From a virus: a DNA stretch of 39,337 bases. The notes under the pieces were generated by a model that saw only the letters and a program-made list of their open reading frames with translations, ran no database searches and was not told the origin of the DNA. The stretch lies in the IMG/VR virus record IMGVR_UViG_3300036885_000623, positions 1 to 39,337 of that record; one strand, written 5' to 3'. The position numbers and the translations under genes are program-made. Each line of letters starts with the position of its first letter. The first letter of the stretch is position 1. Below are positions 1 through 39,337 of this stretch, in pieces.

Positions 1-170
1 TGTTGAAGGTAACTCTATGAACTCATCTGTTGTATAGTCGTAGGCATAAGCATATTTTTGATCAAATGGAATAAGATATTCATAATTAATTCCAGGAACC
101 AAACTATTTCTAAGGCCCATGACAGGGAGGGCAGGAAAATAGCTAAATGTCACCTTGACAGGAGTAGCAA
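1..170. repeat. Terminal overlap, left copy (circular genome)
   Basis: Bases 1-170 are repeated at 39168-39337 with a single difference (G44 versus A39211). The overlap lies inside a protein gene that reads through it in one frame. This fits a circular or circularly permuted molecule that was assembled past its own start, rather than a true terminal-repeat end. Confidence 0.95.
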
Positions 171-4196: not shown

Positions 4197-4592
4197 TTAT
4201 GCCAAAGTGCATCGTAAGTTTAGAAGCCATTGATCGTTGAGTATTCTAGGTACTTCAGCGAATTTATACCCTACACTTGCGTTAAGGGCTAGTGGCCCAT
4301 CATAGATGGGTGGTCGATAGATAAACTGTGCAGAATATCCATCTTGTTCAATAGCTGCGAAGGACTCACGCCCTACACAGAATATGTTGTAGACATCAGC
4401 CCCAAGCATAGAAGCATTAGGAGTTACAGAACCAATGCTAGATAGTAAGAATCTAACGTTGGCAACTGTTCCCCATTCTGCATCTAATGTGCTTTGTTGA
4501 TTTGGATAGTTCCATTTTTGAATGAATCCATTGACGTTGTCCAACTGACCAATTAGGTTAGTGTGGCCAAGGCCAAAGTAAGAATCGCGTAC
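4197..4592 (-). CDS. Major capsid protein, exon 3 (C-terminal 131 residues)
   Basis: This is the C-terminal part of the split capsid gene. The open frame begins with ATG at 4595, but that ATG is made of the last three intron bases. The exon proper starts with GTA (Val) at 4592, giving VRDSYFGLGHTN. Residues such as EWGTVANVRFLLSSIG and LGADVYNIFCVG are the signature of the N4-gp56-type major capsid family. Joined to exons 1 and 2 it completes a 315-residue capsid protein, a normal length for the family. The 3' splice site is set by a P10 pairing (4588-4592 with 4826-4830). The stop is TAA, overlapping the ribosome site of the next gene. Confidence 0.88.
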   Translation of the reverse strand, partial: VRDSYFGLGHTNLIGQLDNVNGFIQKWNYPNQQSTLDAEWGTVANVRFLLSSIGSVTPNASMLGADVYNIFCVGRESFAAIEQDGYSAQFIYRPPIYDGPLALNASVGYKFAEVPRILNDQWLLNLRCTLA

Positions 4593-4834
4593 CATTTTTT
4601 TTTAATTCTGTTACTTATGTGACCAACTGTTAGGAATTTCCTTATAGTTGGCGGGGCGGATTCTTCGATCCACCCTCTCATAGTTGCCTATGAGATCAGA
4701 CTATCAAATCACCTTTGTCAGGTGTCTCTGGGTTTAGTCGTTCAGGCTGCTTTCGCTTGCCCCTTGTTGTCCTTGGCCTATGCCGCGAGGAGTTCCAAGT
4801 CAATTACCAAAGATTTAACGCGCCCATACGTTTT
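4593..4834 (-). ncRNA. Group I intron 2 in the capsid gene (242 nt)
   Basis: On the minus strand exon 2 ends CCGCGCCT and the guide GGGCGCG lies 10 bases into the intron. They pair over 7 bases with a terminal U-G at the splice site (P1). The bases CGTAT just before the guide pair with exon-3 GTACG (P10). The intron ends in G at 4593. The core has GACTA (4739-4735) and TAGTC (4703-4699), the P7 strands, flanking a CACC/GGTG P8 hairpin, followed by a P9 stem. The catalytic core shares a 45-base identical block (about 4724-4768) with intron 1. It has no open reading frame, so mobility would need help from outside. No other reading of this region explains the in-frame exon on each side. Confidence 0.9.
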
Positions 4835-4884
4835 AGGCGCGGTTCCAAATCTATTTTCGCCTTCGACGCCTGTAAGAAAACTAT
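4835..4884 (-). CDS. Major capsid protein, exon 2 (50 bp)
   Basis: This is a 50-base internal exon lying between two group I introns. With the last T of exon 1 it encodes 17 residues, YSFLTGVEGENRFGTAP, that fit exactly between the NNA end of exon 1 and the VRDSYF start of exon 3. Both borders are set by independent RNA pairings: P10 of intron 1 at its 5' end and P1 of intron 2 at its 3' end. It is far too short to be called by gene finders and would be lost in automatic annotation. Confidence 0.85.
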
Positions 4885-5205
4885 CAATTCTGTTACTTTT
4901 AAGACTTACAAAAGAGGGATTATATGGAAAATTTTTTTTCATGCCTTTTCATGGCTAGTCTTATTTTTTTAATTATCAGTGTATCCATAGCTTTTATTCG
5001 CAACTTTTGGTAAGCGGGAAAGGCTCTTCGGCCTATCCTCCACGATTTTATATATAGTCGTGGTTCAGACTATCGAATCCCCCGAAGGGGTCTCTGGGTT
5101 TAGTCGTTCAGGCTGCTTTCGCTTGCCCCTTGTTATCCTCAGCTTATGCAGCTTGAAGGACCTCCAAGTCAATTACCAAAGATTTTGAATGCGCTAGTTT
5201 CGTTA
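4885..5205 (-). ncRNA. Group I intron 1 in the capsid gene (321 nt)
   Basis: On the minus strand exon 1 ends AATGCGT, which pairs with the guide GCGCATT (5195-5189) over 7 bases with a terminal U-G (P1). GAAACTA just before the guide pairs with TAGTTTT at the start of exon 2 (P10). The terminal base is G at 4885. P7 strands GACTA (5105-5101) and TAGTC (5072-5068) flank a GACCCCTTCGGGG P8 hairpin, then a P9 stem of CCACGA/TCGTGG follows. The 3' end shares AAGTAACAGAATT with intron 2. The extra 80 bases near the 3' side hold only a 22-codon frame (4920-4988) with no recognisable endonuclease motif. The core is a copy of, or sister to, intron 2. Confidence 0.92.
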
Positions 5206-5707
5206 ACGCATTATTCCCACGTAGCGTTCTGACAACGAAGTCTACGTCTGTGCGAGTGATTTCTGTTGGGTTATCCCCATCACCACCACCAACACAGTTC
5301 GCAAATGTCGCTGTTCCTGCGAGCATGTCTCTCATCAACTGGTCTTCAGTTTGACGAAGGGAGACACCAAGACGCTGAGCAGCTTCGTTTAAAACAGGAT
5401 CTTGATTTTGTAAGGTAACCTGCTCGTTGAGCAATACGTAGGTACCGTAAAAATCCATTTGTGCGTCAATGTTCAGCGCTGTCAAATTCTGAGGCGCTGG
5501 GGTCACACCTGTATTCCCAAGGGGCACAGGAGCTGTTGCGAGGGGGTTATACCTACGCATACGAAGGGTCGTACCACCATTACGTGGCATCGCTTTCAGT
5601 TCGGCTGGGATCTTGTGGATCATGTACGGCACAGGAACTGACAGCAACTTAAAACTAAAACTTTGCTGGACAGGAGCTGGCAAAGTTGCAGTCGTTGTTA
5701 TAGTCAT
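5206..5707 (-). CDS. Major capsid protein, exon 1 (N-terminal 167 residues)
   Basis: This is the N-terminal part of the major capsid protein, an N4-gp56-type capsid family member. Family-type segments are PYMIHKIPAELKAMPRNGG (residues 28-46), a run RYNPLATAPVPLGNTGVTP and YGTYVLLNEQVTLQNQDPVL. The raw open frame runs on to 5144, adding 20 residues from intron 1 and ending at a TAA inside it, so the apparent 187-residue protein is an artefact. The true coding order is 5707-5206, 4884-4835 and 4592-4197, giving 315 residues in one frame. The upstream neighbour is the scaffold gene and the downstream neighbour a virion protein, the usual head-module order. The ribosome site before the ATG is weak, so translational coupling to the scaffold gene is plausible. 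Confidence 0.92.
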
Positions 5708-8853: not shown

Positions 8854-9258
8854 ATGGGTAAGCATAAATGGTGGCTAACAAAAAATGAGGTTAGAAGAAA
8901 ATGTGGATATTGCAATGAATACTTTCTTCCAAAAAACGATGTACAAATTTATTGCAACAGAGAGTGCAGAGAAAAAGCCCAGAAATATCGAGAAGAAATG
9001 AAGAGAGCGCAGAAGAACCCACTTATTATAATTAAATGTAGGAAATGCAATAGAGAATTCAAAACTATATATATAAAAGTAAAATATTGTTCAGATATTT
9101 GTAGAAATGAAGATAAGATTCTAAAATTAAACAAAAAATGGGCAGAACACGCATACAAAAAAAGAAAGTACCAAAATCTAAGAATGCAGATGTTTTATGA
9201 ACTAGGAGACAAACCATCAGACTCAGCCCTTAAAAAATGCAATGCTTGTAGAGGATAA
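8854..9258 (+). CDS. Zinc-ribbon protein
   Basis: This 134-residue basic protein has two similar Cys4 motifs, CGYC...CNREC (residues 18-37) and CRKC...CSDIC (58-77), each followed by a helical charged stretch. These fit zinc-binding beta ribbons of the kind seen in phage and mobile-element proteins. A third Cys pair, CNAC, lies at the end. It has no recognisable HNH nuclease motif. An AGGAGG site precedes the ATG and a terminator follows at 9522. It is A/T-richer than the neighbouring genes and stands alone on the plus strand, so it may be a recently acquired gene. DNA or RNA binding is likely; the role is unknown. Confidence 0.7.
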   Translation: MGKHKWWLTKNEVRRKCGYCNEYFLPKNDVQIYCNRECREKAQKYREEMKRAQKNPLIIIKCRKCNREFKTIYIKVKYCSDICRNEDKILKLNKKWAEHAYKKRKYQNLRMQMFYELGDKPSDSALKKCNACRG

Positions 9259-13625: not shown

Positions 13626-13698
13626 GCTGGAATAGCTCAGTTGGTAGAGCAGCAGTTTTGTAAACTGCCTGTCAAGGGTTCGATTCCTTTTTCCAGCA
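13626..13698 (+). tRNA. tRNA-Thr (anticodon TGT)
   Basis: The sequence folds as a full cloverleaf. The acceptor stem is GCTGGAA/TTCCAGC, the D arm TAGCTCAGTTGGTAGAGC, the anticodon stem-loop GCAGT-TTTGTAA-ACTGC with anticodon TGT, and the T arm contains GGTTCGATTCC. It lacks an encoded CCA. It reads ACA codons, and the two tRNA genes are adjacent. Confidence 0.92.
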
Positions 13699-13701
13699 TA
13701 T

Positions 13702-13773
13702 TCCTGCTTAGCTCAGAGGTAGAGCAGCTCGCTGTTAACGAGTTGGTCAGTGGTTCGAATCCATTAGCAGGAG
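13702..13773 (+). tRNA. tRNA-Asn (anticodon GTT)
   Basis: The acceptor stem is TCCTGCT/AGCAGGA and the anticodon stem-loop GCTCG-CTGTTAA-CGAGT has anticodon GTT. The T arm contains GGTTCGAATCC. The discriminator is G. Only three bases separate it from the tRNA-Thr gene, and no CCA is encoded. It reads AAC/AAT codons. Confidence 0.92.
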
Positions 13774-13784
13774 AATTGGAAACA

Positions 13785-37485: not shown

Positions 37486-39337
37486 TAAGCTGTCATCCTT
37501 GCATTTGGTGAAAGGTAGAGGGTCATGGCATGCATCACAAAATCACTGTTGGTAATATCGTAGGAGGACATCTGGATATTGTCCATTTTTAGCTGGAGTT
37601 GGAAGTTTTGTGAGATAAAAGGTGAGAAAAACCTATGCCATATTTTAGTTTGGCTACCTTGATTGGGATAAAGGATTGTGTTTTCTGCTGAAGTGAAAAG
37701 GTCATTATTACCTAAAAGACCTTGGTTACTTGCTACAAGAGGGTCATTTATGGATAGAGGGTTCTCATTTTCATAGAATACACAAGAGAGTTGCCCATCA
37801 GTGGTGGTGTCTAAAAGAAAATCTATATAAGGAACAAGATTTTGTTTTCCTTGTTCATAAAATGGAGAAAAAACCTTAGTCATTATATCGAAATTTTGAA
37901 CAATAGTTATCTTTCCTCCTCCTAAATATGTCCCTCCAGGAATCAATGGAACAGGGATAAACGCATTGGTAGTAGGATCCCAGGTTTCAAGAAAGAACGT
38001 ATTGAGATTAGGGGCTATAGAGAATAGGTGATAGGCATCTTGTGTCGTTGATGTGTTTAAGATTGTAGGGTTGGTCCCTGGAGCCCCTGTCCCTATAATC
38101 CCTGTAATTCTAACCCAGTAATCAGCAATCCCAGTGTTGAAATTGTGATTTGGAACAGTGATGATGGCTGGAGCGCCTGATGTGATAGCAGTTATGGCCA
38201 GGGAAGGGCTGTTGAGAACCTGTACGTTCAACATTTCTACAAATCCCTGCTGATTACCTGCTATAAAATTTGTAGAGTCAACCCGCACTGAGGGAGGGAA
38301 TTTGGCGGTAGGAGTTTCAATAAAGAATTTTCCAAAACATGTGAAAGAGTCATTAAATCTTGCATAACTATTGTTTCTATAGTTAAAAACCATTACTTGA
38401 TTGTTGAAATTTGGATTGACTGGATCTTCTATATTAAGAGGAAGATAGGTATAAGACCAAAACGCTAACTCATTAATATAATCTCTTATACCATAAGTTC
38501 TAAAAGGCGCTGGTTGATTGCTTAAGTATTCATCTGGAATATTTAAGTCAATTCTATCAACAGCAGTTGAATCGTCTGTTGTAATCCCCTGTCGTCCAAA
38601 AGAGAACACGCCATCATCAAATGGAATTAAACTGAATGGTGAAGAAGCCCCAAAGTTTGTATTGATCTTTTGCACTGTAAATGGGGCGACCTGATCTCCA
38701 GTATATAACAACTTCCATGAAGAATTTACGCACTTAATTAGTATAACGTCTTTTAAATACTCCACTGAAATTATTGGTTCATCAGTGGGAATATCAAAAA
38801 ATCCACCTTCCCCTGGCACTGCGAGCCAATTTGCCACAACAGTAGGATCGCTTAAGGCTGTATTCCATCTAATCCTTTGTGCAAAGTTTACAGATGTGGG
38901 CGCCATTCCTCCCAGGCCTTCCCATGTGTTAAAACAAACAAGCCGCTCTTTGAATGGAAGCATTGCAAGGCAGCCATGAAGATAGTTTGGTATTAGGTCG
39001 ATAGGTGGAGTGAAGGCTGTCCATGTCGTACCATTATAATATCTGATGGGATCTCCACCTACTGCCCCATTGAAGTTAGTAGCCCAAATAATCGTAGTCG
39101 CTCCTGCTACATTGTAATTTGTAGTCCAAAACAATTGAGCAGTATTACCAGTCCAAGTTGTAGCTGCTGTTGAAGGTAACTCTATGAACTCATCTGTTGT
39201 ATAGTCGTAGACATAAGCATATTTTTGATCAAATGGAATAAGATATTCATAATTAATTCCAGGAACCAAACTATTTCTAAGGCCCATGACAGGGAGGGCA
39301 GGAAAATAGCTAAATGTCACCTTGACAGGAGTAGCAA
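37485..39337 (-). CDS. Tail protein, C-terminal part (continues from 1..603)
   Basis: This is the remainder of the 761-residue tail protein that starts at 603. A GTG at 39320 could be taken for a start, but the frame is open beyond it and matches the coding sequence at 1-170, so it is an internal Val codon (residue 151). The protein is rich in Asn, Thr, Pro and aromatic residues with no membrane segment, typical of a beta-structured tail hub or tail-tube protein. A segment about 390 residues into this part (AIITVPNHNFNTG) resembles the beta-barrel FCCH-like modules seen in two other virion genes of this phage. The stop codon overlaps the next start (TAATG). Base 39211 is A where base 44 is G, which changes Ala to Val. 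Confidence 0.85.
   Translation of the reverse strand, partial: ATPVKVTFSYFPALPVMGLRNSLVPGINYEYLIPFDQKYAYVYDYTTDEFIELPSTAATTWTGNTAQLFWTTNYNVAGATTIIWATNFNGAVGGDPIRYYNGTTWTAFTPPIDLIPNYLHGCLAMLPFKERLVCFNTWEGLGGMAPTSVNFAQRIRWNTALSDPTVVANWLAVPGEGGFFDIPTDEPIISVEYLKDVILIKCVNSSWKLLYTGDQVAPFTVQKINTNFGASSPFSLIPFDDGVFSFGRQGITTDDSTAVDRIDLNIPDEYLSNQPAPFRTYGIRDYINELAFWSYTYLPLNIEDPVNPNFNNQVMVFNYRNNSYARFNDSFTCFGKFFIETPTAKFPPSVRVDSTNFIAGNQQGFVEMLNVQVLNSPSLAITAITSGAPAIITVPNHNFNTGIADYWVRITGIIGTGAPGTNPTILNTSTTQDAYHLFSIAPNLNTFFLETWDPTTNAFIPVPLIPGGTYLGGGKITIVQNFDIMTKVFSPFYEQGKQNLVPYIDFLLDTTTDGQLSCVFYENENPLSINDPLVASNQGLLGNNDLFTSAENTILYPNQGSQTKIWHRFFSPFISQNFQLQLKMDNIQMSSYDITNSDFVMHAMTLYLSPNARMTA
39168..39337. repeat. 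Terminal overlap, right copy
   Basis: This is the right copy of the 170-bp overlap described at 1-170, differing only at base 39211. One copy should be removed to give a unique circle of about 39,167 bp. The single mismatch is either a read error or real variation in the phage population (Ala/Val in the tail protein). Confidence 0.95.

Follow-up and report, generated by a model that had tools for sequence, protein, structure and literature searches.

Two predicted group I introns in the capsid gene of an uncultured phage, most likely acquired separately from an intron family that recurs throughout this gene

Why does the major head protein gene of an uncultured phage, represented by IMG/VR record IMGVR_UViG_3300036885_000623, come in pieces, and where did the inserts that divide it come from? 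The window analysed here is this entire record (39,337 bases), which encodes a P22-like portal, a terminase, a DnaB-like helicase and a phrog_1357 major head protein. It carries a direct terminal repeat of 170 bp (window 1-170 and 39168-39337, 99.4% identical), and the phage genome is probably complete, because a second assembly (L082), 99.99% identical to the window over the first 11 kb, crosses the terminal-repeat junction. The head protein is found in two minus-strand open frames that match consecutive phrog_1357 positions (22-201 and 208-339). We propose that two independent group I introns, both free of an endonuclease, are spliced out of this gene to give a 315-residue capsid protein, and that they were acquired separately from a family that hops between sites. 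We put the probability of this reading at about 0.93.

The predicted exons, introns and paired elements are listed in Table 1. Boundaries were obtained by dynamic-programming spliced alignment to a capsid relative, with U as donor and G as acceptor and with small bonuses given to P1 and to motifs of the family; it placed both window introns to the exact base. Intron 1 is inserted at codon 167 (phase 1) and intron 2 at codon 184 (phase 0), a site that is occupied in at least five other phages. Splicing in silico removes 563 nt and leaves a 315-residue protein with one continuous phrog_1357 match (positions 22-338, 104 bits), which scores above the separate pieces. An earlier sequence-only reading of this DNA had described a capsid frame that is interrupted twice and restored by a 50-bp middle exon, and its coordinates, lengths, joins and removed length all agree with the alignment. 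It had also proposed a comparison of the joins with capsid homologues. A first scan of viral contigs yielded 137 relatives of the 315-residue protein, of which 80 were retained; the gene is uninterrupted in 60 loci, with full-length identities up to 91% and mostly exactly 315 codons. At the DNA level 59 intronless relatives align, and 56 cover both joins (34 of them gap-free there). Both introns had been called endonuclease-free, and indeed neither contains an endonuclease-like open reading frame (ORF): when their two longest ORFs, which are antisense, were compared with Pfam, nothing scored above cut-off. Against a phage collection, searched for a cultured relative, the best tblastn match of the capsid was only 28% identical, and the intron DNA gave short matches only.

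Table 1. Predicted features of the interrupted capsid gene (window positions; R2 is the family covariance model described in the text).
Feature	Position	Strand	Evidence or remark
Capsid exon 1, 502 nt, ends in U	5206-5707	-	phrog_1357 22-201; spliced alignment
Group I intron 1, 321 nt, ends in G	4885-5205	-	spliced alignment, covariation, R2 125.7 bits
Capsid exon 2, 50 nt	4835-4884	-	frame restored; matches intronless relatives
Group I intron 2, 242 nt, ends in G	4593-4834	-	spliced alignment, covariation, R2 145.3 bits
Capsid exon 3 with stop codon, 396 nt	4197-4592	-	phrog_1357 208-339
Intron 1 P1 exon strand AAUGCGU	5206-5212	-	sequence
Intron 1 P1 guide strand GCGCAUU	5188-5194	-	7 bp with U.G
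Intron 1 P10 strand GAAACUA	5195-5201	-	pairs exon 2 UAGUUUU 4877-4883, 7 bp
Intron 1 P3 5' strand	5176-5182	-	covariation, sequence
Intron 1 P7 5' strand GACUA	5101-5105	-	
Intron 1 P7 3' strand UAGUC	5068-5072	-	
Intron 1 P9.2-like hairpin, strands 5014-5004 and 4914-4905	4905-5014	-	sequence
Intron 2 P1 exon strand CGCGCCU	4835-4841	-	
Intron 2 P1 guide strand GGGCGCG	4819-4825	-	7 bp with U.G; covaries with exon among site-184 phages
Intron 2 P10 strand CGUAU	4826-4830	-	pairs exon 3 GUACG 4588-4592, 5 bp
Intron 2 P3 5' strand	4807-4813	-	covariation, sequence
Intron 2 P7 5' strand GACUA	4735-4739	-	
Intron 2 P7 3' strand UAGUC	4699-4703	-	
Intron 2 P9.2-like hairpin CCAACU...AGUUGG	4623-4651	-	
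45-nt identical block, intron 1 copy (P4 3' strand, P6, P7 5' strand, P3 3' strand)	5090-5134	-	
45-nt identical block, intron 2 copy	4724-4768	-	
23-nt identical block, intron 1 copy (P3 5' strand, P4 5' strand)	5163-5185	-	
23-nt identical block, intron 2 copy	4794-4816	-	

As the sequence-only reading had noted, each intron has its own P1 and P10 (Table 1) and the P7 strands (GACTA/TAGTC) are the same in both; both also end in a terminal G (G4885 and G4593). Covariation was examined in 55 short introns of the family, in an alignment that was not fitted to the structure, with a named structure that includes the P3/P7 pseudoknot. In the core (P3-P8) 98.4% of cells are paired and 22 of the 30 pairs show two-sided changes, with 301 two-sided cells against 87 in shuffles, and pairing falls to 39-46% when the partner strands are slid. 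The P7 pseudoknot pair 108/174 varies among A-U, G-C and U-A. Column 109, unpaired between the pairs 108/174 and 110/173, would be the bulged base of the G-binding P7, an assignment made at the sequence level only. A covariance model (R2), built from 34 introns from which those of the window were excluded, finds both window introns, and nothing else in the window matches it better than E = 0.2. By their boundaries, fold and guide pairings, both window inserts are group I introns that are predicted to splice. The loop of the P9.2-like hairpin in intron 1 (~90 nt) contains a frame of 22 codons (window 4988-4920) that is perhaps the relic of a lost ORF.

The same family crowds the capsid gene of relatives. 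Two further scans, which used intron-core patterns only and no exon sequence and whose counts are lower bounds, added at least 227 new loci, at least 154 of which have a family intron in or near the same capsid gene. After cleaning, with both profile halves required in each intron, at least 240 introns remained in 150 loci; these contigs are uncultured and the loci partly overlap, and counted as distinct sequences there are at least 199 in about 125 distinct genes. Exact insertion sites number at least 73-78, at least 28-30 of them recurrent (two or more distinct introns), with some site calls possibly off by a codon or two; merging by chaining of sites within 9 nt still gives at least 29. The sites span codons 12 to 305, and the highest load among the matches listed is five introns in one gene (L102). 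Model matches in 51 phage records (mostly 32-42 kb) lie almost entirely in or within 2.2 kb of the capsid gene (146/149). Among 14 records chosen for an apparently uninterrupted capsid gene, 12 had no match at all and two had introns near codon 12. The sequences show the family to be concentrated in one gene, which it would have colonised repeatedly at dozens of sites in this clade.

The guides track the sites that they occupy. Among phages whose exons differ at a shared site, 15 exon positions vary; their 74 cells are all paired, and 14 of the positions show a compensatory change. At site 184, for example, the exon GCGCCU of the window pairs with GGGCGC, and GGCCCU of another phage with GGGGCC. 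A P10 of at least 5 bp is formed by 29% of introns with their own exon and by 9% with the exons of other sites. These two results are less circular than the P1 statistics (199 distinct introns listed), in which a P1 of at least 6 bp is found for 91% with their own exon and 7% with the exons of other sites. Several points weigh against our reading, and this circularity is one of them: P1 gave a small bonus in boundary placement, which makes P1 statistics on the calls partly circular. Secondly, Rfam RF00028, at its gathering and E-value thresholds, had no match in the window, and among the relatives it gave two weak matches only (L228, 28 bits; L155, 24 bits; cut-off 50), which is why covariation was analysed within the family. 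The sequence-only reading had expected a group I covariance search to hit both introns; R2 does so and RF00028 finds neither. We regard this miss as a limit of the general model, and a match to it is not a defining feature of group I introns. Thirdly, the family was gathered with patterns of its own core and the survey covers this intron family alone. Lastly, both the splicing during infection and the way in which the family spreads are deduced from sequence.

A second question is whether the two introns are copies of each other. The sequence-only reading had taken one for a copy of the other, with guide and P10 rewritten, from blocks of 45 and 23 identical bases, which are present where it placed them. 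These blocks belong to the best-conserved core of the family, the longer one being P4-P6-P7-P3 by the predicted fold. In comparisons of profile-aligned cores the window introns are 73.9% identical over comparable positions, and when relatives are ordered by identity, intron 2 comes 14th for intron 1 and intron 1 comes 19th for intron 2. Their closest relatives reside in other phages (L140 at site 184, 82%; L192 at site 188, 83%), and in a tree of 42 introns they fall in different well-supported groups (96/95 and 97/96). The copy claim is therefore not supported, and two separate events of acquisition from the pool of one intron family are the most likely history suggested by these comparisons. 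Local transposition within the capsid gene, followed by rewriting of the guides, would explain the identical blocks and the shared P3 and P7; an approximately unbiased (AU) test does not reject sisterhood (p=0.105), and similar pairs occur in single genes of other phages, such as L168 261/274 at 87%. Given the core identity, the ranks and the tree, we nevertheless consider it unlikely for the window pair. Moreover, nearest neighbours within one phage are not in excess in the family as a whole: among 194 introns listed, the nearest neighbour is at another site of the same phage in 2 cases (0.9 expected), against 56 at the same site of another phage (7 expected). Same-gene pairs at 81-87% core identity were seen in L168 (184/261/274), L231 (172/181) and L196 (181/273), and these are better candidates for local duplication.

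How the family would reach new sites is a related problem. Near-identical cores (88-96%) occur at different sites with unrelated guides. According to our proposal ribozyme bodies would move between sites, while guides would stay with a site and track its exon sequence, and the window introns would have come separately from a pool that repeatedly colonises the capsid gene in this clade. An alternative is that intron RNA enters, by reverse splicing, capsid mRNA that matches it and is abundant late in infection. This would suit the preference of the family for late structural genes with high expression (this capsid gene and, as judged by eye, other capsids, portal and tape measure), and also the lack of an ORF of at least 70 codons in about half of the introns (107 of the 199 listed). 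Cores that are at least 88% identical and occupy different sites, though, agree at 2.57 of the 6 exon guide positions, compared with 2.1 when introns are unrelated; the target is therefore not chosen by the existing guide, which argues against reverse splicing into guide-matching sites. In addition, 47 of the introns have an ORF of at least 120 codons, and many of the longer introns encode LAGLIDADG endonucleases or, by eye, HNH-like proteins, which indicates homing at the DNA level. Reverse splicing is thus an improbable route, and the pattern fits homing plus exchange of ribozyme bodies. The leaders, compared as a test of whether guides stay at a site while cores are swapped, are more similar at the same site (0.64-0.70 against 0.52), which the P10 constraint can explain. 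Short ORFs of about 55-112 residues with CxxC motifs were observed in the P6 loop of L066, L072, L198, L179 and ~25 other introns. They begin right after AAGGGGCAAG, which resembles a ribosome-binding site, and share the end QPERLSEKT..., encoded by the ribozyme core itself.

For the capsid gene of the window, self-splicing would proceed as follows. Each intron would fold around its own core, its guide sequence would mark the 5' splice site through P1 and the 3' splice site through P10, and the intron would excise itself, with guanosine as the cofactor. Ligation of the three exons (502, 50 and 396 nt) would yield the mRNA of the 315-residue protein. P10 of intron 1 can form 7 bp with exon 2 against 2 bp with exon 3, which should disfavour exon skipping; P10 of intron 2 can form 5 bp with exon 3 against 3 bp with exon 2. 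Alternatively, the gene could stay unspliced and be translated as separate pieces of 187 and 132 residues, as both open frames exist and the second begins with an AUG (4595-4593) at the end of intron 2. This AUG has no obvious ribosome-binding site upstream, however, and the products would lack exon 2, whose 17 residues are conserved in relatives. A single 315-residue protein is made by intronless relatives, and the guides and core are under selection, which makes separate translation very hard to accept. Least credible of all are dead remnants or an assembly artefact, for which nothing was found: the second assembly L082 carries both introns with one mismatch in 11 kb, so that the structure is not a misassembly, the core pairs are intact in both introns and the frame is restored exactly.

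Some relatives carry inserts that consist of little more than a guide. The initial spliced alignment had a minimum intron of 140 nt, at which these mini-inserts could not be represented and their neighbours were misplaced; with a later minimum of 25 nt, at least 23 distinct mini-inserts of 29-59 nt were found at codons 81, 86, 88, 91 and 104 of relatives' capsid genes (for example in L075:1116-1168, L225, L096, L133, L086, L301, L228, L094 and L190; the one in L220 is a codon-88 insert numbered 99 in the numbering of its reference). All of them combine a P1 (6-8 bp) and a P10 (4-6 bp) with a terminal G, and none has a ribozyme core. As 16 of the 23 shift the frame and the remaining 7 contain an in-frame stop, the capsid needs them removed. 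Among the codon-88 inserts P10 position +3 shows all four Watson-Crick pairs (16/16 paired). Another family intron follows 26-91 nt downstream of all 23, the downstream calls in L108 and L128 being partial (alignment or contig end). The tail of the mini-insert can pair with the end of the short exon over a mean of 9.2 bp, against 6.3 with shuffled tails, and in 15/16 of the codon-88 cases this helix stops 7-9 nt short of the following 5' splice site, abutting the next P1; RNAfold of L225 places P1, the tail:exon helix and the next P1 in series. This could imply that the tail:exon helix plays the part of a P2 and anchors the guide-only intron to the core of its neighbour, which would remove the guide-only intron first and itself afterwards. 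We lean slightly towards the view that some introns of relatives have been reduced to their guide, with a P1 and a P10 in covariation with the exons, that one downstream core removes two introns and that tandem pairs like that of the window represent the stage before core loss. Translational bypassing of the mini-inserts was considered and rejected, since no matching landing codon was seen by eye past the insert. The window itself has no mini-insert; its intron spacing of 50 nt is typical of mini-insert/intron pairs.

Several known systems resemble this locus. The orf142 gene of Staphylococcus phage Twort contains three group I introns, and introns 2 and 3 are similar, surround an exon of 23 nt and show exon skipping (Landthaler and Shub 1999, cited in PMC11878797 and PMC10136302). 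As in the window, a phage structural gene thus has several group I introns with two similar ones around a very short exon, and exon skipping is therefore a real question here too. The sequence-only reading had considered such a pair rare, a claim that needs qualifying in view of Twort (PMC10136302). Still, orf142 is described there as a tail-tube gene with three introns, whereas the family reported here sits in a capsid gene, a single copy of which can contain as many as five introns, and uses dozens of sites across the clade. DNA polymerase and terminase genes of Bastillevirinae likewise have two or three group I introns with a small exon between them, with one case of exon skipping; these introns reside in nucleotide/DNA metabolism and terminase genes, called phage-typical in that study, and not in the capsid (PMC11878797). 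Mycobacteriophage LittleE has a group I-like intron in the major capsid gene that is spliced efficiently, as seen by RT-PCR (PMC3706429), and a capsid intron of lactococcal Tuc2009 is cited in the same paper. Unlike here, each of these has one capsid intron and no multi-site family is described. Fungal mitochondrial cox1 is likewise a single conserved gene that serves as a reservoir for mobile group I introns, which occupy many sites in it: 18 in Agaricus bisporus, the highest number in one gene, and 35 positional classes over all cox1 genes known in 2010 (PMC2987802). Compared to cox1, the phage capsid gene measures 945 nt, has at least 73-78 exact and at least 28-30 recurrent sites and reaches five introns at most among the matches listed, and its introns are all close relatives within a single family. 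In the literature found, no known phage gene has more than three introns (PMC11878797), and this capsid gene is the most intron-crowded phage gene that we found described in open-access literature. Group I introns of phages are considered to prefer genes for nucleotide and DNA metabolism (PMC11878797, PMC12350094); here, in contrast, a capsid gene is colonised by one family, and at dozens of sites. With at least 199 introns at known sites, many with near-identical cores that have been re-aimed, whether a new site is reached by reverse splicing, by endonuclease homing or by core swapping becomes testable by sequence and simple reporter assays, and this capsid gene offers a natural test bed for intron spread. 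Spliceozymes and other engineered trans-splicing group I ribozymes demonstrate that removal of a foreign intron by a core is chemically possible (PMC4094466); unlike these, the guide-only mini-inserts are natural and lie beside a full intron. If the neighbour's core indeed removes them, this would be the first natural case known in open-access literature of one group I ribozyme serving two introns.

Members of the family were also seen outside this capsid gene. With genes named by eye, they occur in other capsid genes (L210, L240, L212, L203, L251, L282), among which there are apparently unrelated capsid families with two or three introns each, and in portal (L093, L268, L283), tape measure (L085, L149, L181, L186) and ribonucleotide reductase (L229) genes. 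Because other capsid, portal and tape measure genes are among these locations, late structural genes seem to be the general niche of the family. Three of the six capsid matches in GTDB genomes were Chlamydiota metagenome-assembled genomes (L310, L313 and L315: Simkaniaceae, Parachlamydiaceae and Parachlamydia), two of them on phage-sized contigs; for that reason, and provided that the binning is correct, the phage clade may infect environmental chlamydiae. Tailed phages of chlamydiae were not found in open-access literature. Elsewhere in the window, a NinG-like cysteine-rich ORF of 134 residues (8854-9258), which has no relatives in the phage collection, could encode a free-standing nuclease, and adjoining tRNA genes for Thr(TGT) and Asn(GTT) are located at 13626-13774.
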